This document shows positions 230-46,855 of a stretch of 52,439 nt of DNA, in pieces. Below the pieces are notes generated by a model that made no database searches, was not told where the DNA came from, and was given only the letters and a program-made list of their open reading frames with translations. The DNA is taken from the NCBI GenBank assembly GCA_029213195.1, contig JARGNI010000039.1, positions 1-52,439 of the forward strand. The letters are read 5' to 3'. The position numbers and the translations under genes are program-made. Source of the stretch: Verrucomicrobiales bacterium (GTDB lineage Bacteria > Verrucomicrobiota > Verrucomicrobiia > Verrucomicrobiales > DEV007). Each line of letters opens with the position of its first letter. Position 1 is the first letter of the stretch.

Positions 230-3200
230 CTACTGACCGCTGAAGACCGAGTAGCTCGAATACTTGTTCTGGGAAGGATAGAAGACGTAGTAGGTCGTTC
301 CGATCCGGATTCTTCCCCGGTTCAGCTTATTGCGACGCTCTTCATCTTCGTCATCATTGGAACCGAGGAGCGCATCGAAAAGATCTTCCAGTGCCCAGGT
401 TTCCCCTGCCGCGGTCGACTCCTCTTCTCCTTCTTCGAGGAACGGGATGTAGGTCACGACACCTTCACCACTGAAGTAACCTTCCTCGTCTCCCTCTTCC
501 TGGCGGAAGAAGACCTCGTTGAGGAATTGCTGGTTCTCATTCAGGAACCCAAGCAGAGGCTCGACCGTAGTGATATCGAACGGTGGCGGCGGCAGGATGG
601 GGAAAGTGAAGATGTCCTCGACCGGAATGTCTGCGAGAGCGTCGTAGAGGAAGGTCGCATCCGCGCCACCTCGCACCAGGCTACCGTTCGTGGAGCTTCC
701 CAGCTCACCAACATTCAGCGCCGTAAGGGTTCCAAGACCACCAAGCGGGTCGACATCTGCTGTCACACCACCTTGACCGGTAAGGGCATCGGTTGGAAAG
801 ACCCCAAAGGTATCGAAGCCAGCCTCGGTCGCCAAGTCAATCTGCGCATCACTCATCCACCAGAGATCGGGAGCGAGAAAGACCTCGTCCGCTTCTCCTG
901 CAAAGGGATCGGTGCCTCCGCCGGTAGGAAAGTCCTCGACCGGACGTCCTCCATATTCATTGCCATTGATCAGGGTGGAAGTCTCCACCAGGTTGAGGCT
1001 TCTCGAAGGAAGGTAGAACTTGATAGCAGAGTTCCCGGTAATCACCGAGCCACGGTCATCATAACTGGAAGCACTCCCATCTGTCTGATCTTCAACACCG
1101 CGGATTTCCATCAAGCCCGTTCCTCCGAAGAATGGGAAATTCCGGCTTGAGGCGATTTCGACGCCCCCGGCACGGAGTGCCGTGCTGAATCGCTCGTCGG
1201 CGTGGCCCACCATGGTGTGCTCGAAGTCGATGTCCTCGCCCACTGCGATCACGATATCGCCTTCGAGGAGACCGTTCATGCTTCCCCGGGAACCCACCGT
1301 TCCGTCACGCATCCAGTCGCCATGACCGATCTTGACGTAATTGTTTGCCGAAATGGGAAACAGCTGACCAGAATTGTCAAAAGTTCCATCCACGGTTTCG
1401 AAATCGTTCCCAACGAGGACTTCGATATCACCCAGTGCGCTCCCGGAGATTCCTCCAGGTCCGCCATGCCCAATCTGGGAGAAACCGTTCTCGACGCTCT
1501 GGCGTCCGAAAAGACCTGAACCCAGATCGACACCTACATCCTCGAAGTTGAGAGAATTGTGATCTGGAGTGCGTCCCGCCTGCATGGTCAGGTCATTCCC
1601 TGCCACGACGCGAACGTCGCCGGACATCAGGGTGGTATTCACCTGGCCCGAATCGTTGTTCTCACTCGAGAAATGACCGATCTTCGCAAAGTTCAGGTAG
1701 GTGAAAGCATTCGCTCTCAGGAGATTGACGTCCTCAGCACGACGCTGCTGAGCGATGATCTCGATGTCATTGCCTGCATACACACTGATGTCTCCCGAGG
1801 TGGGCGCATCGAGGTGAATTCCACCGTGCCCGATGAATCCGGCTGCTCCCTGGGATCCGAGAATGATATTACCCGCCTCGTCGCTGATGATGCCGTTGGA
1901 ACTGCCCATGACCGAGAGGTTTTGCCCGGCATAGACATTGATGTCTCCCTGGAAGCCACGGGTGGAGAGGGCGTCGCCAAAGAGGGATGCATAACCATGA
2001 CCAATCTGGGAATGGGTTCCTGATGGACCGGTTTCGGAAACAACATCATTGGTTCCTTCACCACCAACAAGGAGAATATCCCGTCCGGCAGTTACGTCGA
2101 TCGTGGAAGAGGCCTCGATCCCATTGATGAAGGCTCCATCGAGAACGGTCAACTGTCCGCGGTTACCACCCTCTTCGATACGGAACGCGCCGTGACCGAT
2201 CGCGAGACCATTGTCGATCGACGTTCCGTCCTCATTCTTGTCGAACTCGGCTCCGGTCCTGCCGTCGAGAATCACATCCTGTCCGGCATCGACCGTGATC
2301 AGACCGCCAATAATCAGCTCCTCACCATTGCGAACGCGGAGATCGTTCCCGGTAAATCCGTGTCCCACTCGAGACCACATTCCTTCGCGGTTTCCGCTTT
2401 CGAGGCGGAGATCACCGGCAGCGGTCACGAGAATGTCTCCAACCATGTCATCAAAGTTGGTCCCCTCATTTCTCCAATACTCCCCATCATAGAGTTGACC
2501 ACCGTGTCCGATCTGGGCGAAGGCGTCTTCCATCTGGTTCTTGTTGATATCGTCTGTGGCGTTTCCATTGAGGCGCCACTGCCCATCGAGGTGGAGGAGG
2601 CTGATCGATCCCGTCTCCGAGTTGACCGTGATATTGGCGGTATTCGAGGTCAGCTCGAATTCTCGAGTCCGGCTCCCACCCGAAAGATCGGCTACGCCGT
2701 TTCCGAGGGTCGACTGCACACCGGCTCCGTCCGCATCGCGATAGACCACGGAAGCCGAGGTCCCATCGATTTCGGAATCGATATCGATGGAAACGTTATC
2801 GAAGAAGAAATTTTCGTTCCGAGAATAATCCCCGCCGACCTGGCCGAACTCCCGTCCTCCCTTGTGACCGATCTTGGCGTAGGTATCGCCATAGGCGCCA
2901 GCCGTGATCGTGATGTCGCGAAAGACATCGACATTGATGTCACCCACAAAACTGATGAATCCGGATTCATAACCACCATGTCCGACGTGCGCCTGGGCTC
3001 GATGATGGCGATTTGCGCCATTCCCCGTCCACTTGGTCTCTCCACCACCGGTGATATCGAGGGCTCCTCCGGCGTTGATGTCGATGTTACCCGCGATGAA
3101 ACTGGAAGTCTCGAAGTCGGCGAGGGTGTTGCCACCATGCCCGATCTGGGCCGAGTCATAGACGTCATTTCCTGCCTTCACGATCACGTTTCCACCCGAG

Positions 3201-6200
3201 TCCACATCGATGTCACCCGTGATCGTCATGAAGGTGAGAGCACGGTTGAGACCGTTGTTTCGCTCTCCCACTACCGATGCCGATCCAGACGCATCGGCGT
3301 CCGCTCCGTTGTTCAAGGCAAGTCGGAACTGGACGATTTCCTGATTTCGATCAGTCCGATTCGAAGCAAATCCACTCGCTCCCTCGCCCCACAGCGCAGC
3401 GCTGGTACCGCCGTGGCCGACTCGGGCATACCGACGATCTCGATTGGTCGTGAGCCCGGCCTCGTATTCAGCGTCACCCGGAATGAATCCATCGGCTTCG
3501 TTGGACTGGTCCTCCGTGCTGTAGCCTTCGACGATCACGGAACCGGCGACCGCTTCCACGGTGACATCTCCATGGAAACCGGAGACGACGCTGCCATCGA
3601 GGGCTTCGACATCCACCGGGCCATCGATCATGGGATTGGTGGAGTCAAAGACGACGAGCTCGCGCCCCTGCCCTTCGAAGATGGCCTGGTTCCCCGAAGG
3701 ATCCGGGGGGCTATTATCGGGATCCGGATCCGGAAACTGGTTCGCGTTTACCCGGTCTGGTGCCAGGTTCCGGAGGCTGAGAACCCCGTAGACCGAGCCT
3801 GGATCAGGATCGCCTGCGGTAACGGCCGCATCGTAGGCCGCGTTCAAATCATTCGAGTTGTAGTCGTAGAGATTCCCCCGTCTCAGGAAAGGATCGTTGA
3901 AATCGGATCCCGAGCTGAAGAATCGGATCTGCGCGTCCTTGTTGCTGGGGGGATCCCAATAGTGATAGGTATCCACATTGTGCCCGATCTGGGCGTAGCC
4001 ACGGGTATTACTACCGGCCTTGACCGTCACTCCGGCACCAGCACGCACCTGGATATCTCCGTAGAATTCCCCAAACTGACCCAGTCCGCCGTGACCGATC
4101 ACGGCCGGCGCACCGGCACTGGCAGAGTTATTGTTGTCATCGTTCTTGTTCTCTGCAGAACCGAGACGCTGGATCCCCTGGACGAGGACGGAACCGGCTC
4201 GAGGAACCAGGGAAACGTTCACATTCCCTTCCGAATCCACCGAAATATCGGAATCGACATCCACTCCAGCAAGGACGTTGATCTGTCCACGGACAGGAGC
4301 CAATCGAGCGATCGCCATCGCGCTCCGGTCATTGTTTGCCCCATTCTGGCTCCACCGACGATTCACTCCCTGCTGAGTTCCGCCAGCGTTCAAAGCTCGG
4401 TTGTCAGCCCAGCCGGCGGAGTCCCCGCCGTGGCCAACATAGGCCCCACTCTGGTGACGACCTCCACCCTGCACAATCACGTTCGACCGTGCGATGAGAT
4501 TGATGTCCGCCGAATGCGCATCGCTGTAGACCGGCGCATTCCCGGAGATCGAGGCGGCTACATCGATGCCACCGGCCCCGTTTTCGGGACGCAGACTGCC
4601 GAGACCAGCAGGATCGGGAGCCTCAGCATCAATCCGCTGCCACCACCAGTTTCCGTGCCGTGCATTCATGTAATGGTTGGCGTAGGGCACCATCGTGCTC
4701 GCGACTTCCCCCGTGTTGTTGATCGCACGGACGCCCATCGCCACCCCATTCGCACCGGTAGGGTCTCCATTGACATCTGTCAGGAGGGTGCCGTCAGGTC
4801 CGGTGACTTCTAGGATTCCTGCGATCCCTACGGCAACATTGTTGTCACCCGTTGAGGAATTCCCGTTGAGGTCCAAATTTCCCCGACGAGGGGCAAAAAT
4901 CTGTCCCGAGTCGCGGAAACCAACTTGAGCGTGACGACTCTCCGCATTGGTATCTGCCGCGGTCACAATGATGTTATCGGCGGCGAGATTGGTATCGCCA
5001 AAACGACTGCCAACTTCGACATGTCGGTTCATCGTCGCACTCCCGACAAAGATATTCCCTTCGTTCTCTCCGAACTGACCCGCTTCGACATAGTATTCGA
5101 AGAGATCCTGGACGCCCATCGTTCCGCCACCTGCAGCAAGAGCACGAGTATTGCCGTCATCGAGAACTTCATCGGCATCGACTGTTCCATCCGCTCCGCC
5201 AGCAACTCCGACAGCTGGCCCACTGAAGAGCCCTGCCGCTTCCGCCTCGGTTCCACCCCAGCCTCCAATCAGGTTGATCGATCCTCCACCTGACGTCCGG
5301 ATGTGCGTTCCAATGATCACATCCCCGCCGGCAAAGGCGCCGAAACTGGCATTCGAGTTGGTCCACTGGATCGCATGATCGCGATCGTCTCCCAGTCCAT
5401 TGCTGGTGAAAACGATGTCACTGTCCGCCCCTTGCGTCGCGAGAAGGACGGAGGTACCGCCTTGAAGAGTGTCGTTGATAAACCCGGAGTCGATCTCGTT
5501 GACCCCGTTCAGCCCGTTCCCGATCGTCAACTCCCCCGGATCGAGGAGAACTGCACCAGCGGCTCCATTCAAAGAGGTTGCGGAAACCAGCCCGCGGAAA
5601 GTGAGCGTATTCAGACCCGAAACCTCGATCAGCCCCCCATTTCCGACCATGCCACTGGCATTGGCGCGAGCTTCACCTTCGAAGAGAGTATCGCCATCCG
5701 ACCAGACGATGATTTGTCCTGCATCACTGACGCTGGCGGAGACATCAAAGACAGCATCGGGTCCTACCACCGTGCTATTGGAAGCCTTCAGACCATTGGT
5801 GGAAATTCCCTGGAAATCGCCACCGGCCTTGATCGACCCGCCACGTCCACCAGCCGCATCGATCGAGGCAGTCACGGCGACTTCATCCGCCGTGATAGCA
5901 ACGGACCCGGCGTCGAGAATGGTCGAGGAAGCGTTGATCGTTCCGCCGATCTCAGCAGCCGCTCCGCCTTCCAGCGACACCGAACCGGCGTTTCCAACCG
6001 AACTGACATCGACGCGCGAGTCGTCTGTCATCACGATCGAATCCGCTTTCACGGAAACCGTGCCACCGTCATTGGCTCCGATGCTGGACGCATCGAGCGT
6101 TCCGCGGTTTTCAAAGCTTCCGCCCTCGACCTCGATCGCTCCCCCTCGTCCGTTCGGGCTTTGCGCCGCGACGGTTCCGGTGTTCATGATCCGGCTCGAA

Positions 6201-7078
6201 GATCCGGTCGCGAAAAGGCGAGCCCGTCCGTTCTTCCGGCTTCCCCCCGTTGCCCGGGTGATTCCCGTGTTGTTGATCGCAAGGGAATAGGCATTGCCCG
6301 AAGACATCAGCTCGGTCGCGGCTGCGGTCACCGAACCGGTCTGGTTGACGCCGATCCCTTCGTAAGAAGAAGCGCCGCGCACGGCAATCGTTCCACCCGA
6401 AGCTGGGCTGTTGACCAGGATATCGCTTCCCGATGCCAGTGCGACCGTTCCGGTCGCCGCCTCGATCGATCCGTGGTTGTGGGCAAATCCGCCCAGGAAA
6501 ACGACATCGCCATTCCGGGAACGAACCGAACCGTAGCTCTCCACCCCGTTTTTCGAATTTCCAAAGAAGCTCGTCGAACCCCCATTGAGGAGATCGGCAT
6601 TCGTGGCATCCAAGGTCGACATGGCGAGGAGACCTCCCACGTCGATCACACCCGAAGAACCCACGATCACGCCGTTGGGGTTGATGACCATGAGACCACC
6701 ATTGGCAGTCACCGAACCATAGATCGCACTGGGATTCCCCGAAACGACCCGGTTGATCGTCAGCGCGCTGACTCCAGGCTGGTTGAAGTGGACACTTTCG
6801 CCCGTTCCCACCGAGAAATCCTGCCAGTTGATGATCCCGACCTGGGTCGACTGATTTACCGTGAGGTTCGCAGTTCCCATGCCATCGAAGTTGATCCCGC
6901 CGGCAACCACACTGGCCCCGCTAGGGTTGGCAAGGAGAGGCACAGGCCCGGTCACCAGGGTGACGGATGGAATCAGGCTGGCAATCAGAAAAAGGCTGGC
7001 GCGGGTCGACCGTCGAAAGCGCCCCAGCAAGGTGATAGCAGGGCGAGACAGAGGTCTGGTCCGTTTGAATGCGTTCAT
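230..7078 (-). CDS. Giant filamentous-haemagglutinin-type exoprotein (IGHGG repeat protein 1)
   Basis: This 2282-residue protein is predicted to be secreted. An extended basic and then hydrophobic signal sequence ends near LLA-NPS (residue 50). The next 150 residues are a TPS/haemagglutination-activity domain with the NPNG motif at about 133-136. The remainder is a Gly/Asp/Asn-rich, probably beta-helical repeat body in which an A-Q-I-G-H-G-G type motif recurs roughly 14 times, usually followed by a G-D-I-x-V strand. The C-terminus is acidic and ends in a short tail with an E-E-R-R and a T-Y-Y-V-F motif, shared with the gene upstream. No TpsB/FhaC transporter gene is present in the window. ATG at 7076-7078 has no Shine-Dalgarno; its leader is pyrimidine-rich. 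It lies 72 bp downstream of its paralogue in the same direction. Adhesin or matrix function is an inference from the family. Confidence 0.85.
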   Translation of the reverse strand: MNAFKRTRPLSRPAITLLGRFRRSTRASLFLIASLIPSVTLVTGPVPLLANPSGASVVAGGINFDGMGTANLTVNQSTQVGIINWQDFSVGTGESVHFNQPGVSALTINRVVSGNPSAIYGSVTANGGLMVINPNGVIVGSSGVIDVGGLLAMSTLDATNADLLNGGSTSFFGNSKNGVESYGSVRSRNGDVVFLGGFAHNHGSIEAATGTVALASGSDILVNSPASGGTIAVRGASSYEGIGVNQTGSVTAAATELMSSGNAYSLAINNTGITRATGGSRKNGRARLFATGSSSRIMNTGTVAAQSPNGRGGAIEVEGGSFENRGTLDASSIGANDGGTVSVKADSIVMTDDSRVDVSSVGNAGSVSLEGGAAAEIGGTINASSTILDAGSVAITADEVAVTASIDAAGGRGGSIKAGGDFQGISTNGLKASNSTVVGPDAVFDVSASVSDAGQIIVWSDGDTLFEGEARANASGMVGNGGLIEVSGLNTLTFRGLVSATSLNGAAGAVLLDPGELTIGNGLNGVNEIDSGFINDTLQGGTSVLLATQGADSDIVFTSNGLGDDRDHAIQWTNSNASFGAFAGGDVIIGTHIRTSGGGSINLIGGWGGTEAEAAGLFSGPAVGVAGGADGTVDADEVLDDGNTRALAAGGGTMGVQDLFEYYVEAGQFGENEGNIFVGSATMNRHVEVGSRFGDTNLAADNIIVTAADTNAESRHAQVGFRDSGQIFAPRRGNLDLNGNSSTGDNNVAVGIAGILEVTGPDGTLLTDVNGDPTGANGVAMGVRAINNTGEVASTMVPYANHYMNARHGNWWWQRIDAEAPDPAGLGSLRPENGAGGIDVAASISGNAPVYSDAHSADINLIARSNVIVQGGGRHQSGAYVGHGGDSAGWADNRALNAGGTQQGVNRRWSQNGANNDRSAMAIARLAPVRGQINVLAGVDVDSDISVDSEGNVNVSLVPRAGSVLVQGIQRLGSAENKNDDNNNSASAGAPAVIGHGGLGQFGEFYGDIQVRAGAGVTVKAGSNTRGYAQIGHNVDTYHYWDPPSNKDAQIRFFSSGSDFNDPFLRRGNLYDYNSNDLNAAYDAAVTAGDPDPGSVYGVLSLRNLAPDRVNANQFPDPDPDNSPPDPSGNQAIFEGQGRELVVFDSTNPMIDGPVDVEALDGSVVSGFHGDVTVEAVAGSVIVEGYSTEDQSNEADGFIPGDAEYEAGLTTNRDRRYARVGHGGTSAALWGEGASGFASNRTDRNQEIVQFRLALNNGADADASGSASVVGERNNGLNRALTFMTITGDIDVDSGGNVIVKAGNDVYDSAQIGHGGNTLADFETSSFIAGNIDINAGGALDITGGGETKWTGNGANRHHRAQAHVGHGGYESGFISFVGDINVDVFRDITITAGAYGDTYAKIGHKGGREFGQVGGDYSRNENFFFDNVSIDIDSEIDGTSASVVYRDADGAGVQSTLGNGVADLSGGSRTREFELTSNTANITVNSETGSISLLHLDGQWRLNGNATDDINKNQMEDAFAQIGHGGQLYDGEYWRNEGTNFDDMVGDILVTAAGDLRLESGNREGMWSRVGHGFTGNDLRVRNGEELIIGGLITVDAGQDVILDGRTGAEFDKNEDGTSIDNGLAIGHGAFRIEEGGNRGQLTVLDGAFINGIEASSTIDVTAGRDILLVGGEGTNDVVSETGPSGTHSQIGHGYASLFGDALSTRGFQGDINVYAGQNLSVMGSSNGIISDEAGNIILGSQGAAGFIGHGGIHLDAPTSGDISVYAGNDIEIIAQQRRAEDVNLLRANAFTYLNFAKIGHFSSENNDSGQVNTTLMSGDVRVVAGNDLTMQAGRTPDHNSLNFEDVGVDLGSGLFGRQSVENGFSQIGHGGPGGISGSALGDIEVLVGNDFETVDGTFDNSGQLFPISANNYVKIGHGDWMRDGTVGSRGSMNGLLEGDIVIAVGEDIDFEHTMVGHADERFSTALRAGGVEIASSRNFPFFGGTGLMEIRGVEDQTDGSASSYDDRGSVITGNSAIKFYLPSRSLNLVETSTLINGNEYGGRPVEDFPTGGGTDPFAGEADEVFLAPDLWWMSDAQIDLATEAGFDTFGVFPTDALTGQGGVTADVDPLGGLGTLTALNVGELGSSTNGSLVRGGADATFLYDALADIPVEDIFTFPILPPPPFDITTVEPLLGFLNENQQFLNEVFFRQEEGDEEGYFSGEGVVTYIPFLEEGEEESTAAGETWALEDLFDALLGSNDDEDEERRNKLNRGRIRIGTTYYVFYPSQNKYSSYSVFSGQ

Positions 7079-7150: not shown

Positions 7151-10100
7151 TTATTCACCGTAAGGAGATCCGAACAGGCGAAGACTGGAGTAGATTCTCG
7201 TGTTTTCGTTGAATCCAAAGAGGTAGTAGGTGCGTCCTCCAGCTCGGAGAAGAGCACGGCGGCGCTCTTCGTCGGCGACCTCCGCATTCAAGTCTCCGGC
7301 ATCGAAGAGAGGTCCGACCCACGCGTTCTCGTTCCCCACGGCCTCTCCGCCTTCCGTAGAAAGACCGAAGAGTTCGATAAGAGCGAGGTATTCCTCACTG
7401 CCTTCTCCGAACAGCTCGGCAAAGAGATCAGCCCGGTCGTAGGCGTCGAAACCACTGTCGAGGAAGAAGGGGTCTTCTCTAAGCAGCTGCGCAAGCACCG
7501 CGAGAGGGTCCACTGGCGCCGGGCCAGGAGGCACGGGTGGAACCGGCGGGAGAGAAGTGGGATCCGCGTAGTAGACATTGTAGAGCCCCAGGCTGTGGAA
7601 TGGGAAGCCGCCCTCGGGAGGATCGAAGAACGTTCCACCCGGCTCGCCAAACGCACCCGCGGTATCCGCCGTAAAGAAATGCTCGGTGGCAACCTGCTCA
7701 TCGATTCCGTCCCGGTTCCCCACGCCACCGGAATCCGTGCGGGAGTATTCCTGGTTGTTCAGGAAGGCGCCATCCTCGATCGCGTTTTCCGTTGCGCTCG
7801 GCATGTAGATCCGAAGATCGGTGGTGAGTCCGCCATCCGCACTGGTGAGGACGGTTCCACTGCTCATCGTCACACTCCCGACCGGCAGCGGAGCTCCGAA
7901 GGCATCCGTTCCGTTTCCAGTAGGATTGTTCCGGCTGGCGGCAATGAGGGTGTCGCCATCGGCACCGATCGTGACACCCGCGCTCGTGTTGGCGAGATCG
8001 ATGTGCCCGATCTGGGCCCCGAAATCGGTCTCCTCAAGGGAAACCATCGCATACTCGGCAAGAATCGACGTAGCCGTAGCACCCTCGGTGATGTCGCTGG
8101 TCAATTCGACCTCTCCCGTAGCGTAATTGATCGTTCCGACTACGGTTCGGGTTGCGGGAAAGCTGACCGTGTCATTGTCCGTATTCGTATCCGAACCCAC
8201 ATTGAGCACCTCGGCAATGAGAACGATATTGCCGTTACCGTCATCGCCGTAGTGATGGATCAAGGTGTCGGCTCCACTGGGCGATTCCACGGCAATCCCG
8301 AAGGCATTTGGTGCAACAGCCCCTCCGTCCGGATCGGCAGGACCGGCCAAGGTTGCGGTCCCGCCTGCGCCGATCGCGGAGAGATCTTCGTCCGAAGCCC
8401 GGAACAGATTGACACCATTCGCCATGAAGATGTCCTGTCCGACACTCACAAAAATATCTCCCGTTCGACCGCCGCTTCCGTTGTTGGCATTGCCCTGGAA
8501 AATGGAGGCGCTGTGCCCGATTTTTGCATTGGCGTCGCGGACTACGGTCCCATGAGCATCGACCGTGGATCCACGCCGCATGACGAGGTCGTTCCCCACA
8601 TCGATGTCAATCGTTCCGGTGAGGTCTCCGTTGACGTTGTTTCCGCCGTGCCCGATCTGGGCCTCGGAGCGCCGGGAACCGAATCCACCCAAAAGAGTAA
8701 GATCTGTTCCAGCCGTGACCTTGATGTTACCGGAGGCATCTCCATCCGAGTATGGACCGCCGTTTCCGATCTTGGCATAGAAAGCACGGAAGCTGTCATT
8801 CCCGGTTCCACCGGCTCGCTGCTGATCATCCCGGTTGAAAATGTCGCTTCCTCCACCCTGCAGGCTGACACTCCCATTTGCTGCGATGACCGTGATGTCT
8901 CCCGAATACCCGCTCCCATCTCCGGCAGCATTGTTCTGGTTGCCGCCCTGGGCATCCGTATCGAACCCGCCGTTTCCGATCTGCGCGTAGTTCTCACGAG
9001 CCACGGCTACATTGTTCGAGTTTGCAGGACCGGAGTTAGGATCGTCCTCGGTATCGGCCGACGGAATCCCACCCGTGAGAGTGATGTCGCCGGTCTCGGC
9101 AACGACGGAGATATCACCGCTCAAGGTCTCACTGCGGCCCCAGGTGCCACCGGAACCGATGATGCCGTAGGCGCCCCGCGGGCTGTCACCGGCCTCGAGA
9201 TTCACCCCGGTTCCCGTGATGATGTTGATATCGGCGTGGTGATTCCCCCCGTTGCTCAATCCTCCCGAACCGATCTGGACATAGGATCCGCGGGTAATGT
9301 CGTTGTCGACCTCGACATGGACGCCAAGTCCCGGGATGAGAGTGGCCACTTCACCGGTCGTGTCGCCGTTCTGGAGACCTCCGCCTTGCATGTCGAGGCG
9401 CCCATCGATATCGATGTCGATCGTAGTCGTCGCCCCCGTGTCTCCGTCGCGCTGGTTGTCACTGTTGACGCGGTCGGAGTCGTAGCCGCCGGAACCGACC
9501 TGGGCAAAAGCCTGACGACCTTCTCCCGCGATGAGGCTAAAGTCACCGCCGTTGGAGTTGTCACCATCACCGATGATGGAAATGGTTCCGGAGTGATCGC
9601 CTCGAGCCGTATCGCCACCGAGGCCGATCATCGCGTAGTTGCGGGTGCCCTGGGAAGGGTCATTCTGCACTCCATCGTTCCGAATGAAATTGCTGTTGGT
9701 GCCACCAACCGCCGGACCGATGAAACGCCAGCCCGTTCCGTCGCCATTGTTGGTGACGGCAGGATTATTGGCAACTCCAGCATCCATTCCCGAAAGAACC
9801 TGGATCGGAAGGAGCTGGCCCGATGAAACGCTTTGCTTGATGTCGCTGGCTTCCACACGGATATCTCCACCGACCTGGATGTCGATGTCTCCTCGGTGAC
9901 CCAATCCATCGATCGAGTTGCCGGCGATACTGCCTCCACCTCCGTTGCGGGTTCCACCCGAGCCGATGTAGTCGGTGGCCCGACCGCCGTTTCCGATCTG
10001 GACATAACTGTCGATCGCGCTGTAGACCGCGTTCGGCAGATACCAGACCTCGCCATTGTCCGAAGTATCCGACGTATCCGTGTCACTTCGAGTGATCTGC

Positions 10101-13100
10101 TGAAACCGTCCGCCGTGCTGACTGAAGAACCGGTCAGGAGTGACACTGGTGGAGAAAGCAAGTGCCGCCCCCGCATCCGGGACCTGGGTTGCATCTCCGC
10201 CGAGGATGGTGATTTGATTGAGAGGGTTCGCCGTGTTGTGCACATCGACAAGCTCCTGGACCGTCAGCGTCCCGTCTCCATTCAACGTGACCGCGGTTGG
10301 CGCCATAAGCACGATCTCACTGTCGAGACCGGCCACTGCACCGGGCCCCTGGAAGACGACCTGTCCCTCCGTGACATAGGTATTCTGGACGTTGCCGATG
10401 TTTGGGTTGCCAGCTCCGTTGTCCTGAAGGATCCGGATCTGGAGCGGCTTGTCTCCCGTGGTATCACGCATCGCAGCAAGAGCGGTAATATCCCCGCCCA
10501 CGTCGAGCGTGATGTCGGAAGCGCCGAGAACACCGATACCGTCCCCATTGACACCCGAGTTGTTCCAGTTGCTTGTCCCGTTCGTCGCAATGTGCTCGGA
10601 GTCACTTCCCCCATGACCCAATTGGGCAAAGTTCCGCTCCGCGGTCCGGCTGTTGTCCTGAGCCGAGTTCAACATCGGGGCTGCTACGTTATCGGCCGTA
10701 TTGCCGGCATTATTGAAGGAAACCGCATCCCAGCCTCCGCGAGCCTCGAGATTGAAATCACCCGTCGCGGTGACATCGATCTCGCCATAGTGGTTCCCTT
10801 TCGAGAAACGGCCGCCATGGCCAATCATGGTGAAGTTATCGTTTCCATTCTCCTCCATGTAGGACTGCCCTGTGAGAGTCTCGGTCTGCCCGGCAACGAA
10901 GCTGATATCTCCACCAGAAGTGACCGTGATGTTCCCATGATGCCCGGTTTCGAGGACATCGAGATCCCCATTGGCGTTGGTGGCGCCCCCACCGAAAGGT
11001 GCGCTCGTGGTGCCAACACCGTCACCCGTGAGATGATTGGTCTCGAGGACGTCCGCGTGCTGGAAGTATCCTCCATGACCGATCAGGGAGTGAGCCTGAC
11101 CGTTCTTGAATCCACTCCGGAAAATGATGTCACGTGCCGCAACAACATTGATGTCACCGGAGTGAGTGCCGTTGGCGATCTCATTGCGCTGGCGCCCTCC
11201 ACGCCAGGTGGACGAGTCCTCCCCTCGTCCGCCATGTCCGACTTGGGCGTAGGACTCAGAACGACCGCCATAAAACTCAACATTCCGGCCAGAAATGACC
11301 TCGATGTCACCCGTGGAACCCCCGTTGTAGCGTGTGCCCCCGTGACCGATCTGGACGTGGGCACGATGACCACGATTGGTGATATCCCGGCCTCGCTCGT
11401 TGACCTGCCAAGCCTCGCGGCTGAAGACAATGGATCCACCTGCAAGGACCGAAATATCTCCCATATGATCGCCATGGGTGGAACGACCACCATGACCGAC
11501 CATGGCATACGCGTCTGTCCCATTCCCTGCAACGAAGGTGACCGTAGAAGCCGAGTTGAGGGAAATATCCCCACTGTGTCCAAACGCCTCATTCGTGACG
11601 CCTCCGGCAATGCCATTGACCGTAACGCCTGCACCATCAGAGATCCGGCCACGAATCCGGTTGATCGCGATGCCATCGCCCGCATAGCTTGAGTTGTTCA
11701 CGGTATTGGCACCTGCAACGAGAGCACCGCCGCCATCAGGATCATTGGTGTTCAGGGTCACCGTCCTGCGAGGACTCGCATCCATGAAGGGGGCGTCCGG
11801 ATCGTCGGGGCGGGCCACATTCCCGCTGGTATCGTAGGCGCCCCTGTCCCGGTTGGCAGCAGCCACGGCCACGGATGAATCGGTGCTCGTTCCATCCCAT
11901 CCAGCAAGAGAGTCGAGGAAGAGGAAATCAGAATCGTACCCCCCGTGCCCCACCTGCACATGGGATCGATCACGATTACTTTGCCAACGCCAGTCATTCG
12001 AGTTTGCGGGCCCGCCCGTGGCGGAATCGGGCACGGCGCGTGCGCGAATCCCACCACTGATCGTCGTGATCTTAATATCACCGGAATGCTCCCCTCGGAT
12101 TCGGGTACCTCCGTGACCGATCATCGCGAAAGTATCCCGGTAACGTCCACCTTCGATATCGACCGCACCCGCATCGATCGTGATATCCCCGGACATGTTT
12201 CCGAAGACATGGATATTTCTCACATTGTTGTCTCCCAGACCGGAATCGGAAGCGGTCTGGTCCCTCCGGCGATCGGGATCGTCGTTGGCGAGACCTCCAT
12301 GACCAATCTGCGCGTGAGACTCGGCACGGCCGGCTTGCAACTGGACCGTTCCATTGGTGCGGATGGTGATATTTCCATGGTTGTCGCCGTTTCCGACCGA
12401 GGTGTTTCCGGCGTCACTCCCGTAGTCAGCAATGTCGAAACTGTTCCCATTGGCAATACTGGCACCATTCGTAAAGTTGCTGAACCCAAGCGCACTGTTC
12501 TCGAGGATGGTCACATCGGCTTCGTTGCGGTTGTTGTTGTCCCCTCCGTTGGTGTTGAAGGCACGGTTGTCGACGTCGTCGTCATTCTCACGAATTCCTC
12601 CGTGACCGATCATGACGTAGGCGCGATCGTTGCTCTTGATACCATCGTCGTTGTTGGCATTCTGGTTCTGAATCACGAAAACTCCCGACTCGGCGTCGAC
12701 GTTGATATCGCCGGTGACTCCCGTATCGAAATCGAGGTCGGTGGCGGTGTTGATCAGAATATCATCCGCGGTGCCGATATCGCCATCCGCTCCCAGGCCG
12801 GTAATGGAACGAGCCCGGAGGTCATTCTCCCGGCGGTAGCCCAGCTGGGTGAACTCTCCGTTGTGATTTCCCGAGGTCATCAACAGGATGTCGGCGAAGA
12901 CATTCGTTTCGCCACGAGCACTTCCAACCTCGACCGGCTCGAGAGCCGCATCGTTCATGAAAACAGTTCCACTGTTCTGACCCCAGGCACCGTAAGTTCC
13001 TGCATTGATATCCGCAAAACTGATCGCAGGATCGGCTGCGGACGGCAGGCCGCTACCGTCCACTGGATTGAACGCAAAAAGATCGGCGCCGGCGCCATCC

Positions 13101-14878
13101 CAACCGGCGACCAGGTTGATATTCCCCGTTCCGGCGAATGCCGTATCGGTCGTTCCGTGGTTCTTGATATCGCCATTCACGAAAATGTGACGGTGGGCGA
13201 AGAAAGAGAGGGAGTTCGGGCTGTCATACTGGATGTCGGACCCGGAATTGATGATGATGTCGCCGGAACCCGTTCCGGCAGAGGAAGTGTGGATGACCAC
13301 ATTGTTCGTCAGGATCGCCTCGAGAAGCGCGGCGTCCGTCATCGTCAGGCCAGTTCCTCCGGCAGGTCCGATGATCACATCACTGGGATCGAGGAGAAGC
13401 GTTCCGTTCGCTCCATTCAGGGAGCTGGTATTCGCGCTACCCACGTAGGAAAGCTGATTTCTTCCGGAAACCTCAATGAACCCGCCGTTTCCGACGGCAC
13501 CCGTTGCCCGGGCCGAAGCGTCGGCTGCAAAGAGCGTATCGCCATCGGACCACACCACGACCGTTCCACCGTCGCCGGAGAGACCGTCCGCAGTCAAGGT
13601 AGCCCCCGCCTCAGCGAGGGTTTCGCTGGAATTGCGGATATCGCTCTCGTTTCCTTGAATTCCGCCTCCTGCGCGGATCGCTCCGCCCGAGAAACCGGAA
13701 ACATCGACAGAGGAACTCGCAGCCACCGTGACCACGTCGCCGACCAGATCCACCTTGCCCCCCTCTTTGAGGGAGCCAGTGCTGGAGATATCTCCAGCCA
13801 CATTGAGAGCATCAGCCGCATCGAGAGTCACGCTGCCACCGCGAACACCGTCAGTGGAAATCGTCGTATCAGCGCCCACCGAGATCGTTTCAGCGTTCAC
13901 ACTGACGGAACCCCCGTCGCGCCCTTCGGCACCGGAGGCATCGACACGACCCGAAGCAAGATTCACCTCGCCGGCGGTCACCTGGACCTGCCCGCCTCGA
14001 CCATCACCCTGGCGGGCGTAGTAATTTCCCGTATTGACCATGCGCCCAGTGGATCCGGCACTGAGAGAAAGTCGACCTCCCTTGAAGTTGTAACCACTCG
14101 CACGGACAGTCCCCTTGTTGTTGATCGCCATCGCGTAGGAGTTGCCATGCGCGTCGAAAGACACATCGCCACCCTGGATCGTTCCGGAGTTCTCGATCCC
14201 GGTCGCCGCAGCAGGAGCCGCTCCGCGAACGGAAATTGTCGCCCCATCGGAGGTCTGGTTGACCATGATGTCTCCTCCGACACCGATCGCGACCTTCCGG
14301 TCGGCAACGATGCTGCCATCGTTGTTCATGAAATTACCCAGCACCACGACGTCCTGTCGGGCATAGATGCTCGCTCCCGCTTCCACCGTCACTCCCTTTC
14401 CGGTGTTGCCCTGGAATCGATTTGCCCCGCCGTTCAGGAGATCGGCATTGCTCGCATCGAGGGTCGAAAGAGTCAGAGCGTTGACATCGATCATCCCGTT
14501 GGCACCCACGATGATTCCATTCGGGTTGATGACCATGACCCGCCCGTTGGCGTTCAACTGGCCGTAGATCGCAGATACATTCCCTGAAACGACACGGTTG
14601 ACGGCAAGCGCGCTCGCATTCGGTTGCACGAAGGTCGTCGTATCGCCTGTCCCGATCGAAAAGTCCTGCCAGTTGATGATCGCGGTCTGACTGGACTGGT
14701 TGATCGTCAGGTTCCCCGTCCCCATTCCGTCGAAGTTGACCGTACCCGCAGCAACGGCGGCTCCGGAGGGATTCGCATTGATTGCGACGGGAAATAGAAC
14801 CAACCCTGGAGTCAACACGATCGTCAAAAACGATCGCAGAAACCATTGGTTTCGAAAACGTGTTATGAGTGTCTTCAT
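7151..14878 (-). CDS. Giant filamentous-haemagglutinin-type exoprotein (IGHGG repeat protein 2)
   Basis: This 2575-residue paralogue of the preceding gene has the same plan. A signal peptide ends near INA-NPS (residue 35), the TPS domain carries an NPNG motif near residue 117, and a very long Gly/Asp/Asn-rich body contains about 18 motifs of the type Q-I-G-H-G-G. The acidic C-terminus ends with E-E-R-R-R and R-T-Y-Y-L-F motifs matching the paralogue. Between about 8.75 and 10.0 kb the histidine of the motif is replaced by Asn, Ser or Leu (IGNGG, IGSGG, IGLGG) and then returns. The frame is open 51 codons further upstream, but ATG 14876-14878 was chosen because it immediately precedes the basic and hydrophobic signal sequence. 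No Shine-Dalgarno precedes it; the leader carries CTCCTCCT instead. Surface adhesin or exopolymer function is inference. Confidence 0.85.
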   Translation of the reverse strand: MKTLITRFRNQWFLRSFLTIVLTPGLVLFPVAINANPSGAAVAAGTVNFDGMGTGNLTINQSSQTAIINWQDFSIGTGDTTTFVQPNASALAVNRVVSGNVSAIYGQLNANGRVMVINPNGIIVGANGMIDVNALTLSTLDASNADLLNGGANRFQGNTGKGVTVEAGASIYARQDVVVLGNFMNNDGSIVADRKVAIGVGGDIMVNQTSDGATISVRGAAPAAATGIENSGTIQGGDVSFDAHGNSYAMAINNKGTVRASGYNFKGGRLSLSAGSTGRMVNTGNYYARQGDGRGGQVQVTAGEVNLASGRVDASGAEGRDGGSVSVNAETISVGADTTISTDGVRGGSVTLDAADALNVAGDISSTGSLKEGGKVDLVGDVVTVAASSSVDVSGFSGGAIRAGGGIQGNESDIRNSSETLAEAGATLTADGLSGDGGTVVVWSDGDTLFAADASARATGAVGNGGFIEVSGRNQLSYVGSANTSSLNGANGTLLLDPSDVIIGPAGGTGLTMTDAALLEAILTNNVVIHTSSAGTGSGDIIINSGSDIQYDSPNSLSFFAHRHIFVNGDIKNHGTTDTAFAGTGNINLVAGWDGAGADLFAFNPVDGSGLPSAADPAISFADINAGTYGAWGQNSGTVFMNDAALEPVEVGSARGETNVFADILLMTSGNHNGEFTQLGYRRENDLRARSITGLGADGDIGTADDILINTATDLDFDTGVTGDINVDAESGVFVIQNQNANNDDGIKSNDRAYVMIGHGGIRENDDDVDNRAFNTNGGDNNNRNEADVTILENSALGFSNFTNGASIANGNSFDIADYGSDAGNTSVGNGDNHGNITIRTNGTVQLQAGRAESHAQIGHGGLANDDPDRRRDQTASDSGLGDNNVRNIHVFGNMSGDITIDAGAVDIEGGRYRDTFAMIGHGGTRIRGEHSGDIKITTISGGIRARAVPDSATGGPANSNDWRWQSNRDRSHVQVGHGGYDSDFLFLDSLAGWDGTSTDSSVAVAAANRDRGAYDTSGNVARPDDPDAPFMDASPRRTVTLNTNDPDGGGALVAGANTVNNSSYAGDGIAINRIRGRISDGAGVTVNGIAGGVTNEAFGHSGDISLNSASTVTFVAGNGTDAYAMVGHGGRSTHGDHMGDISVLAGGSIVFSREAWQVNERGRDITNRGHRAHVQIGHGGTRYNGGSTGDIEVISGRNVEFYGGRSESYAQVGHGGRGEDSSTWRGGRQRNEIANGTHSGDINVVAARDIIFRSGFKNGQAHSLIGHGGYFQHADVLETNHLTGDGVGTTSAPFGGGATNANGDLDVLETGHHGNITVTSGGDISFVAGQTETLTGQSYMEENGNDNFTMIGHGGRFSKGNHYGEIDVTATGDFNLEARGGWDAVSFNNAGNTADNVAAPMLNSAQDNSRTAERNFAQLGHGGSDSEHIATNGTSNWNNSGVNGDGIGVLGASDITLDVGGDITALAAMRDTTGDKPLQIRILQDNGAGNPNIGNVQNTYVTEGQVVFQGPGAVAGLDSEIVLMAPTAVTLNGDGTLTVQELVDVHNTANPLNQITILGGDATQVPDAGAALAFSTSVTPDRFFSQHGGRFQQITRSDTDTSDTSDNGEVWYLPNAVYSAIDSYVQIGNGGRATDYIGSGGTRNGGGGSIAGNSIDGLGHRGDIDIQVGGDIRVEASDIKQSVSSGQLLPIQVLSGMDAGVANNPAVTNNGDGTGWRFIGPAVGGTNSNFIRNDGVQNDPSQGTRNYAMIGLGGDTARGDHSGTISIIGDGDNSNGGDFSLIAGEGRQAFAQVGSGGYDSDRVNSDNQRDGDTGATTTIDIDIDGRLDMQGGGLQNGDTTGEVATLIPGLGVHVEVDNDITRGSYVQIGSGGLSNGGNHHADINIITGTGVNLEAGDSPRGAYGIIGSGGTWGRSETLSGDISVVAETGDITLTGGIPSADTEDDPNSGPANSNNVAVARENYAQIGNGGFDTDAQGGNQNNAAGDGSGYSGDITVIAANGSVSLQGGGSDIFNRDDQQRAGGTGNDSFRAFYAKIGNGGPYSDGDASGNIKVTAGTDLTLLGGFGSRRSEAQIGHGGNNVNGDLTGTIDIDVGNDLVMRRGSTVDAHGTVVRDANAKIGHSASIFQGNANNGSGGRTGDIFVSVGQDIFMANGVNLFRASDEDLSAIGAGGTATLAGPADPDGGAVAPNAFGIAVESPSGADTLIHHYGDDGNGNIVLIAEVLNVGSDTNTDNDTVSFPATRTVVGTINYATGEVELTSDITEGATATSILAEYAMVSLEETDFGAQIGHIDLANTSAGVTIGADGDTLIAASRNNPTGNGTDAFGAPLPVGSVTMSSGTVLTSADGGLTTDLRIYMPSATENAIEDGAFLNNQEYSRTDSGGVGNRDGIDEQVATEHFFTADTAGAFGEPGGTFFDPPEGGFPFHSLGLYNVYYADPTSLPPVPPVPPGPAPVDPLAVLAQLLREDPFFLDSGFDAYDRADLFAELFGEGSEEYLALIELFGLSTEGGEAVGNENAWVGPLFDAGDLNAEVADEERRRALLRAGGRTYYLFGFNENTRIYSSLRLFGSPYGE

Positions 14879-15204
14879 ACGCTGGGAGTTAGGAGGAGTG
14901 TTTCGTAAAAAAGTCAGCGGAAAATGTAACCCTATGGATTCGCAATAACCTGACCGTTTGTAAACGTAAAAATGGGGCTTTTTCCCCGGTTTCTGCTTGG
15001 TTTTGTCGTTTCTCGGAAAGACGTGACACAATTTTAAGAATTTTTCTGCGATCTCAGCGAGTGCCAGATTTTCAGCGAGTTGCCGAAAAACCCGACTTTC
15101 GAGGTCGAATTCCCTCTTCCGGAGGAGGGAAAAACGAGCACCTGCAGAAACAAGGTCACAGGCTCAGCGCCCGAACCGGAGATCCCGGTCGCGTGAAAAT
15201 GCGA
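14879..15204 (-). other. Non-coding 5' region of exoprotein gene 2
   Basis: These 326 bp lie between the stop of the Dabb gene and the exoprotein start. No convincing ORF is seen. The stretch is more A/T-rich than its surroundings around 15020-15050, where a promoter could lie, but I see no clean -35/-10 pair. A short GGGG/CCCC hairpin occurs near 14972-14985. The last 20 bases before the ATG are pyrimidine-rich on the coding strand. Confidence 0.5.
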
Positions 15205-44626: not shown

Positions 44627-45694
44627 CTATGAGATGCAATCCGCGATGACCTCCGGATAGATACGATGCTCCACGGCATGAATCTTCTCGGTCAGGCTCT
44701 CCACCGTGTCGCTCGAGTCGATCGGAACCTCCTCCTGTCGCAGGACCCTACCCGTATCGACCCCGGCATCCACCAGGTGAACAGTGCACCCCGTTACCTT
44801 CTCGCCCGCTTCGAGCGCCCGCTTCACGGGATGAATCCCGGGATAGGAAGGAAGGAGCGAAGGATGAAGATTGAGGACACGATCCGGAAAAGCGGAAAGA
44901 AGTGGATCTCTGACAATCCTCATGAATCCGGCCAGGATGACCCAATCGACTTCCGCCGCCTCGAGGCGGTCGGTCAGCTCCTTGATCGCCGCATCAGTGA
45001 GTCGTCCTTTTCGATCCGTTCCGGGATCGAGGACGAGCGAGGGAACTCCTGCGGATTTTGCGACCTGGAGGATCCCGGCTTCGGGTACATCGGACAGGAT
45101 CACGGCGACCTCGACATCAAGCGAACCCGCATCCACCGACTTCAAGATCGCTGCCGCATTGCTCCCCTTCCCAGAACCGAGAATGGCAATCTTTGGCTTT
45201 CCGGATCCCGGCTCCTCTTTTGCAATTCGTTTCACCGTCTCACTCGTCGACTGTCCCGGCACCAGCGAGAGAATCCGAATCTCAATTCCGAGACGGTCGA
45301 GCAATTCCTTTTCCTCATCGATGAGGGAATCCGGAGTGTAGTCTCCGCCCTTCGTGTAGATATGGGGGCGGATTTTCTCGATCACACCGGTCGCCCGTTT
45401 CTCGCTGAAAACGACTACATGATCGACAAAGCCGAGGGCACAGAGGATCTCGGCACGATCGGCTTCACAATACACGGGGCGGTCGGGCCCCTTCAGTTCT
45501 CGCACCGATTCGTCGCTGTTGATCGCGACCACCAGTCGGTCGCCCAGGGCCGCCGCTTCCCGAAGATACCGGACATGACCGACATGGAGCACATCGAAAG
45601 CTCCATTGGTCAAAACGAGCTTCCGTCCACTCGCCTCCAACTCTTCTCGCAATTCGCGGATCTCCTCGATGCTGCTGATCATTCCTTCAGACAT
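44627..45694 (-). CDS. RfaE2-like nucleotidyltransferase fused to PurN
   Basis: A single 355-residue frame carries two enzymes. Residues 1-160 form an RfaE2/HldE-C-type nucleotidyltransferase with [11 protein letters not shown] (HxGH at about 37-40) and K-G-G-D-Y; such enzymes adenylylate heptose 1-phosphate for LPS core sugars. Residues 166-355 form phosphoribosylglycinamide formyltransferase, which makes formyl-GAR in purine synthesis, with I-L-G-S-G-K-G-S-N and catalytic Asn275, His277 and Asp313 (L-N-L-H-P-S-L-L-P and V-D-A-G-V-D-T-G). The short join at about 160-166 has no frameshift. No other purine or heptose gene is adjacent. Both active sites look intact. Confidence 0.85.
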
Positions 45695-45757
45695 GGACTT
45701 TCAACTACGCCACAATTTCCCCTTTTCACAAACCCGTTTTCCACGGAGACTACCGCC

Positions 45758-46855
45758 ATGCATGATCCTCGCATCGACCAACTCGCCCGCCAACTCGTCC
45801 GCTACTCTACCGCCACCAAGAGAGGCGAGAATGTGCTGATCGAACTGTTCGATGTTCCCGAGGAGATGGGCATCGCTTTGATCCGCGAGGTCCGGGCTGT
45901 GAAAGCGACTCCTTTCATCAATATCCACAATGCCAAGATCAGCCGGGAGATGGGACGCGCTGCGACCGAGGAGCAGTATTCCACGATCGCCAAGCACGCG
46001 ATGCACCAGATGAAGAATATGGATTGCTACATCGCGATCCGGGGCAGTCACAATGTCAACGAGTTGTCCGACGTGCCAGCCAAGAAGATGCAAATGCTCT
46101 CGACCAAGATGCGACCAGTCCTCAACGAGCGCGTCAACAAGACACGTTGGTGCGTCCTTCGTTGGCCCAACCCCTCCATGGCTCAAAGTGCCGGGATGTC
46201 GACCGAGGCCTTCGAGGATTTCTACTTCCGGGTCTGCCTGCTGGAATACAACAAACTCAAGCGAGGAATGAATGCCCTCGGGAAACTGATGACCGAAGCC
46301 AACGACGTCCACATCATGGGACCGGGCACGGACCTGCGTTTCAGCGTCAAGGGACTCCCCGGAATTCCCTGTGGGGGAACTCACAATATTCCCGACGGAG
46401 AATGCTTCACCGCTCCCGTCAAGGATTCCGTCGAAGGCGTGATCAGCTACAATGCCCCCTCGATCTACCAGGGGATCGCCTTCGACAACGTGAAACTGGA
46501 ATTCGAGAAAGGAAAAATCGTCAAGGCGACCGCCAACAATACCAAGGCGATCAACAAGATCTTCGATACCGATCCCGGAGCGCGCTACATCGGGGAGTTC
46601 GCCATCGGCTTCAATCCTGAAATCAAGGAGCCGATGCGGGATATCCTCTTCGACGAGAAAATTGCCGGTAGTTTTCACTTCACCCCCGGACAGGCCTACG
46701 AGGTTGCGGACAACGGGAACCGCAGTTCCGTCCACTGGGACCTCGTCAACATCCAGCGACCCGACTACGGTGGCGGTGAGATCTATTTCGACGGCAAGCT
46801 GATCCGCAAGAACGGTCAGTTCGTTCCCAAGTCCCTGCATTCGCTCAACTACTAG
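45758..46855 (+). CDS. M29-family aminopeptidase
   Basis: A 365-residue thermophilic-type (AmpS/AmpT-like) metalloaminopeptidase. Metal-site residues appear in [18 protein letters not shown], the following S-F-H-F-T, and a late H-W-D-L. There is no signal peptide. ATG 45758-45760 has a good Shine-Dalgarno (GGAG, about 12 bases upstream). The long frame extending upstream to 44666 is a shadow of the RfaE2-PurN gene. It is divergent from that gene and followed by fluC 19 bp later. Confidence 0.85.

Follow-up and report, generated by a model that had tools for sequence, protein, structure and literature searches.

Can one gene serve both the activation of lipopolysaccharide heptose and the synthesis of purines, and how would such a gene come about? 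This question is raised by an open reading frame of a Verrucomicrobiales bacterium (GTDB lineage Verrucomicrobiales; DEV007) in contig JARGNI010000039.1 of assembly GCA_029213195.1, of which positions 1 to 52,439 (the whole stretch of 52,439 nucleotides, hereafter the window) were analysed. The original prediction was that an RfaE2-type nucleotidyltransferase and PurN, the GAR formyltransferase, are joined here in one frame, and this is borne out by the open reading frame, by Pfam and NCBIfam matches and by a structure model. The features of the locus are as follows.

44627..45694, minus strand: hldC-like/purN fusion gene, 355 amino acids (open reading frame, Pfam, NCBIfam, alignment, AlphaFold2)
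45221..45694, minus strand: N-domain, residues 1–158, a predicted HldC/RfaE2-like heptose-1-phosphate adenylyltransferase (HxGH at 37–40, STS at 149–151)
45194..45220, minus strand: linker of 9 residues, 159–167 (alignment)
44639..45193, minus strand: C-domain, residues 168–352, a predicted GAR formyltransferase PurN (N275/H277/D313)
45695..45757, no strand: intergenic gap of 63 bp between the fusion gene and the M29 aminopeptidase gene
45758..46855, plus strand: divergent M29 aminopeptidase gene, a conserved neighbour that anchors the fusion locus in the genus

The fusion protein and its two active sites

The frame has an ATG start and zero internal stops across its 355 codons, and its promoter is presumably located in the 63-bp gap. 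Pfam matches the protein to CTP_transf_like at residues 28–140 (55 bits, cut-off 21) and to Formyl_trans_N at residues 168–350 (174.1 bits, cut-off 26.1). The C-terminal half had been predicted to be a complete GAR formyltransferase with an Asn–His–Asp site, and so it proved: the NCBIfam PurN model (TIGR00639) gives 191 bits, above its cut-off of 150.1, which six out of six further fused proteins also passed (180.9–225.7 bits), and the three residues are N275, H277 and D313, which we take to be the catalytic residues of PurN.

The N-terminal half had been assigned to the RfaE2 group on account of its HxGH motif, and this held with one qualification: the motif (H37-V-G-H40) and the fold of HldC are there, but the score against the NCBIfam model rfaE_dom_II (TIGR02199) is 165.1 bits, below the cut-off of 181.5. 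The same cut-off is missed by the six further fused proteins (164.2–181.2 bits) and by a stand-alone RfaE2 in the related genome G025 (160.7 bits). Because of this score, the N-domain is named HldC-like here and is not filed as a member of HldC. The missed cut-off and the common superfamily are what one would expect if the N-domain were instead another nucleotidyltransferase, of the glycerol-3-phosphate or ethanolamine-phosphate cytidylyltransferase type; however, the comparison with other groups suggested by the original prediction gave only 39.8 bits for the glycerol-3-phosphate cytidylyltransferase model, the best solved relative is HldC, and the N-domain co-occurs with HldA and GmhA, so that we consider such an identity very unlikely.

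To count conserved residues, 50 fused proteins were aligned, loci L138 and L078 being excluded. Residues H37, H40, N59, K68, R100, K115, S149, N275, H277 and H306 are invariant (50/50), and D313 is an aspartate in 49/50. For HldC of Burkholderia pseudomallei, residues Asn30, Asn59, Lys69, Lys100 and Lys116 are described as functionally important [see PMC7993394]. As read from the alignment with these residues, Asn30, Asn59, Lys69 and Lys116 correspond to N30 (47/50), N59, K68 and K115 (50/50 each) of the fusion, whereas the position of Lys100 is variable (K99, a lysine in 15/50) and adjoins the invariant R100. Mean identity to the window protein in the aligned set is 67% for the N-terminal half and 56% for the C-terminal half. 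Judged by these residues, both halves look catalytically intact.

An AlphaFold2 model built from the 50-protein alignment is confident, with a mean pLDDT of 89.8 and a pTM of 0.73. Its residues 1–160 align with HldC (5xf2_B) with a Z of 20.4 and an rmsd of 2.8 over 153 aligned residues, and its residues 165–355 with PurN (3av3) with a Z of 28.0 and an rmsd of 1.8 over 188.

Distribution of the fusion

Within the genus of the window, 26 of 33 genomes (its own included) have one continuous match to the fusion, and members of family groups f3, f4, f5 and f6 have it too. In the order, 288 genomes were searched; of the 159 that lie outside family group f2, at least 115 have a single frame that runs unbroken through the two domains, the genome groups being sorted from the tables of the fusion and HldA searches. 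By family group the shares are 51/74 (f1), 10/13 (f3), 50/68 (f4) and 4/4 (f5 and f6 together), all of them lower bounds. The count of 115 is low because G530 and G569 read as fused at base level and G050, G510 and G554 likewise have one frame, with longer linkers. The length of the linker region, aligned to residues 158–167, ranges from 7 to 39 residues among the 50 fused relatives.

This distribution bears on whether two genes were joined by an assembly or sequencing error. Many of the relatives are draft assemblies, which would allow for such an error, but the frame is continuous in at least 115 genomes, among them G039 and G510, each assembled into one contig (the linker of G510 being longer), and an artefact has a negligible probability. 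Assembly artefact and chance are thus excluded by recurrence within the order, in agreement with the original reading of a continuous frame with a short linker. The suggested search for the same fusion in Verrucomicrobiota showed it to be widespread in one order, and the relatives do not all have separate intact copies.

No fusion match at an E value of 1e-35 was found in 21 of the 159 genomes outside f2; nine of these have HldA (G016, G545, G558, G560, G580, G586, G602, G618 and G627), and most of the nine are incomplete. Five genomes that gave no match do not appear in the table of the fusion search; one of them, G618, is known from the HldA table. In f2, a group that may correspond to Akkermansiaceae, there was no continuous fusion among the matches listed, and no best E value in the genome table was below 2e-57. 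In the f2 genomes examined PurN stands alone; many of these genomes also have an HldE-like bifunctional frame of about 500 amino acids, and some a stand-alone HldA. Four f2 genomes (G311, G587, G610 and G676) each have two fusion matches, and in G311 no N-domain lies within 2.6 kb upstream of PurN. Among 383 genomes drawn from the phylum, the matches listed included no continuous fusion outside the order. A single-protein scan of genome contigs gave 25 loci, fused only at L078. At locus L138 (G544:C215:31000-33500) an N-domain is followed by about 107 residues and then by a formyltransferase-like part with 32% identity; this may be a fusion of another sort, or the gene may be damaged.

A search of the literature for a fusion of heptose and purine enzymes found no description of one. 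The two halves both belong to known types, and the combination was not found described in the papers searched; we rate the protein as a multifunctional enzyme made from fused operon neighbours.

Origin from a gene pair

The original prediction held that heptose activation and purine synthesis are not normally joined. The fusion is real, but the joining is less exotic than this implied, as many families of the class have rfaE2 and purN side by side. Out of 141 class genomes, 106 have a listed N-domain of the stand-alone type (weaker, HldE-type rows being excluded) and 103 of these also have PurN. In 41 of the 103 the N-domain gene and purN lie on one strand no more than 260 nt apart (35 unfused, 6 fused), a state that spans 17 family groups, the two fused ones included, and in a further 5 they lie within 1 kb. 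The N-domain gene is upstream in all 46 close cases. In the remaining 57 the pair is not close, none of them having a close pair in the reverse order; linkage of the two genes is therefore not required.

Unfused pairs were read at base level in 42 cases, 38 of them from outside the order. In 19 a possible purN start lies in a 4-nt overlap with the upstream stop (ATGA, GTGA or TTGA), in 14 the genes share a reading frame but are separated by one or more stops, and 9 are otherwise arranged. Outside the class, none of 20 inspected PurN loci has an N-domain upstream, although one of them (L206) has only about 240 bases of upstream sequence. Since many class genomes have the two as separate adjacent genes, with the N-domain gene first, the simplest account is that the fusion arose in the order from an hldC–purN gene pair of the class type that turned into one frame, the direction of evolution being inferred.

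Evolution may also have run the other way. In both quick trees (N-domain and PurN), the separate adjacent genes of G529 and of G542 are nested within fused sequences; those of G053 do so in the PurN tree and are unresolved at the base of the main fused group in the N-domain tree. This nesting suggests later re-splitting. For the quick tree of PurN, an AU test rejected one exclusive clade of all fused rows, an outcome that nesting of unfused and N-less rows within the fused ones would predict. In the N-domain tree the f6 fusions are placed apart from the main fused group, though not with strong support, the quick trees being weakly resolved at depth. The states found among relatives comprise unlinked genes, neighbours, genes with a 4-nt overlap, same-frame neighbours, fused genes, separate genes among fused ones, and loci with one half absent; this range lends itself well to testing, in nature's own variants, whether a gene fusion signals functional coupling or just operon neighbourhood.

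Heptose and purine genes in the genome of the window

The original prediction had proposed to check for separate purN and hldE genes elsewhere in the genome. Formyl_trans_N matches three places in the 95%-complete assembly, namely the fusion and two genes named Fmt-like and PurU-like from their own sequences, and no separate purN was found by this search. CTP_transf_like matches three genes, the fusion and two that are above cut-off as CoaD and NadD, and no separate hldE or hldC was found in the same assembly. A separate PurT does exist (612.5 bits, G000:C38:1551-2687), so GAR formylation does not depend on the PurN domain alone. Within the genus, 29 of 33 genomes have PurT alongside PurN; the six f2 genomes in which PurT was sought gave no match.

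On a contig other than that of the fusion, HldA (323.2 bits) lies 12 bp before GmhA (192.5 bits), with matches at C104:51263-52234 and C104:52391-52840; both miss their NCBIfam cut-offs (345 and 209.45, respectively). This HldA is a stand-alone kinase that lacks an adenylyltransferase domain; with kinase and adenylyltransferase on separate contigs, the genome does not show the HldE-type fusion of the two here. The fusion is the only adenylyltransferase candidate found for ADP-heptose synthesis in this 95%-complete assembly. It would thereby fill the adenylyltransferase gap in the heptose synthesis of these bacteria, and annotation of the protein as PurN only would make their heptose pathway look broken.

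No HldD epimerase above the cut-off of 274.6 was found in the genus of the window (33 genomes; best score in its own genome, 129.1 bits) or in five f3 genomes, while HldD is present in every f2, f4, f5 and f6 genome searched and in genera g2 and g3. In the genus of the window, where HldD is not recognisable, the heptose pathway may be incomplete or different: it may stop at ADP-D,D-heptose or employ another epimerase.

At L103:10454-12882, the hldA–gmhA pair is preceded by a NusG/RfaH-like gene, named from its sequence, whose product possibly acts as an antiterminator for surface-polysaccharide genes in an operon. In the window, two giant open reading frames on the minus strand (230–7078, 2282 amino acids; 7151–15031, 2626 amino acids) each have an N-terminal TPS secretion domain and probably encode large secreted proteins of the two-partner type.

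The N-domain and the heptose pathway

HldA (E value 1e-30 or better) is present in 110 of the 115 genomes with a fusion, the five exceptions being assemblies of 410–940 contigs. As sorted, eight genomes of the order have a PurN with no clear N-domain attached; among these eight, the PurN of G594 runs into a contig end and the placement of G544 is doubtful. Five of them (G006, G007, G022, G043 and G055) have no HldA, nor do they have a GmhA match of more than 100 bits; G022 is 63% and G055 86% complete.

In G006, G007, G022 and G025, all of the window's genus, PurN lies directly beside the divergent M29 gene and the N-domain is absent. The same M29 gene flanks the fused locus of the window and 23 of 25 further fused loci of its genus (L008–L032), and the PurNs of these four genomes nest among fused PurNs in the tree. 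As PurN has been kept beside the M29 gene, it seems that the N-domain was taken out of the locus and PurN left behind. In G025, HldA is kept, and a distant stand-alone RfaE2 elsewhere in that genome apparently replaces the fused N-domain; this gene (L108:2826-3353, minus strand) adjoins a glucosyltransferase-like gene. A tree-based test of joint loss had only three independent supported pairs and gave a mean of 2.6 concordant and 0 discordant (p 0.25); its power is low, as six or more informative independent pairs would be required for significance.

The retention of PurN also bears on whether the fusion might belong to a single sugar pathway, its formyltransferase domain having been recruited to formylate an ADP-activated amino-sugar in the manner of ArnA. 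Formyltransferases fused to sugar-nucleotide enzymes are known, and ArnA is among the structural matches of the model; against this, all seven fused proteins scored pass the PurN cut-off, the ArnA model gives 52.5 bits compared with a cut-off of 777, PurN is retained in genomes that lack the heptose genes, and no other PurN was found in the genome. On the scores and on the retention of PurN, a sugar formyltransferase was rejected as the identity of the C-domain, and its recruitment to one sugar pathway is highly improbable.

What the fusion may do

It is very probable that the fusion is a bifunctional enzyme of two self-contained catalytic domains, both activities being inferred. The C-domain would formylate GAR with 10-formyl-THF (the PurN step); the N-domain would adenylylate heptose 1-phosphate in the manner of HldC, and this part most likely supplies the heptose-1-phosphate adenylyltransferase step. 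One chain would thus have two independent active sites. Heptose-1-phosphate adenylylation and GAR formylation have no common intermediate; hence, substrate channelling is not expected. The likely benefit is that a step of one pathway is always expressed together with a step of the other; both pathways draw on the pentose phosphate pool (sedoheptulose-7-phosphate, ribose-5-phosphate) and depend on adenine nucleotides. In view also of the metabolic link in Escherichia coli described below, such fixed co-expression is plausible but unproven as the benefit of the fusion; alternatively, the fusion may be an operon accident that has persisted neutrally.

Could the two domains sense each other? Regulatory coupling would mean that the purine or folate state (GAR, 10-formyl-THF or THF on PurN) tunes ADP-heptose synthesis, or the reverse. 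Conservation of the fusion across five family groups favours it, as does a metabolic link between gmhA and purine synthesis in Escherichia coli, where deletion of purR, which derepresses purine synthesis, is reported to suppress gmhA phenotypes, so that the two pathways interact through metabolism in that species [see PMC10671730]. Against coupling, several genomes keep PurN without the N-domain, separate adjacent genes occur inside the order (G529, G542 and G053), and the linker region varies in length. If the domains depended strongly on each other, one would not expect the N-domain to be absent repeatedly, or separate genes to occur among the fused relatives. We therefore regard regulatory coupling as unlikely, and a metabolic coupler in which GAR or folate bound at the PurN site would determine how fast ADP-heptose is formed as equally doubtful; if true, the latter would tie the supply of outer-membrane sugar to the supply of purines.

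Comparison with known systems

As a probable bifunctional enzyme of two self-contained domains, the fusion can be set beside several known proteins. Its N-domain resembles HldC of B. pseudomallei (PDB 5xf2, 5x9q) in fold, in sequence (about 40% identity), in the HxGH motif and in most of the named active-site residues, and like HldC it accompanies a separate HldA kinase; unlike HldC, the protein continues into a C-terminal PurN and scores 16 bits below the NCBIfam cut-off. HldE, which occurs in several f2 genomes in frames of about 500 amino acids, also contains an RfaE2-type domain, there as the C-terminal half. The partner in HldE is a kinase of the same pathway, whereas the partner in the fusion is a purine enzyme and the adenylyltransferase is N-terminal.

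The C-domain resembles monofunctional PurN (PDB 3av3, 1cde) in its fold, in its Asn, His and Asp and in passing the NCBIfam cut-off, and differs in bearing the N-terminal HldC-like extension. In the trifunctional GART of animals every domain serves purine synthesis; the fusion is similar in having a PurN-type domain inside a multifunctional protein, and the GAR transformylase domain of GART (5j9f) is among its structural matches. In ArnA, both domains act in one sugar pathway and the formyltransferase is N-terminal. This formyltransferase–dehydrogenase fusion has about 22% identity to the fusion described here and shares with it the joining of a formyltransferase fold to an enzyme of surface sugars.
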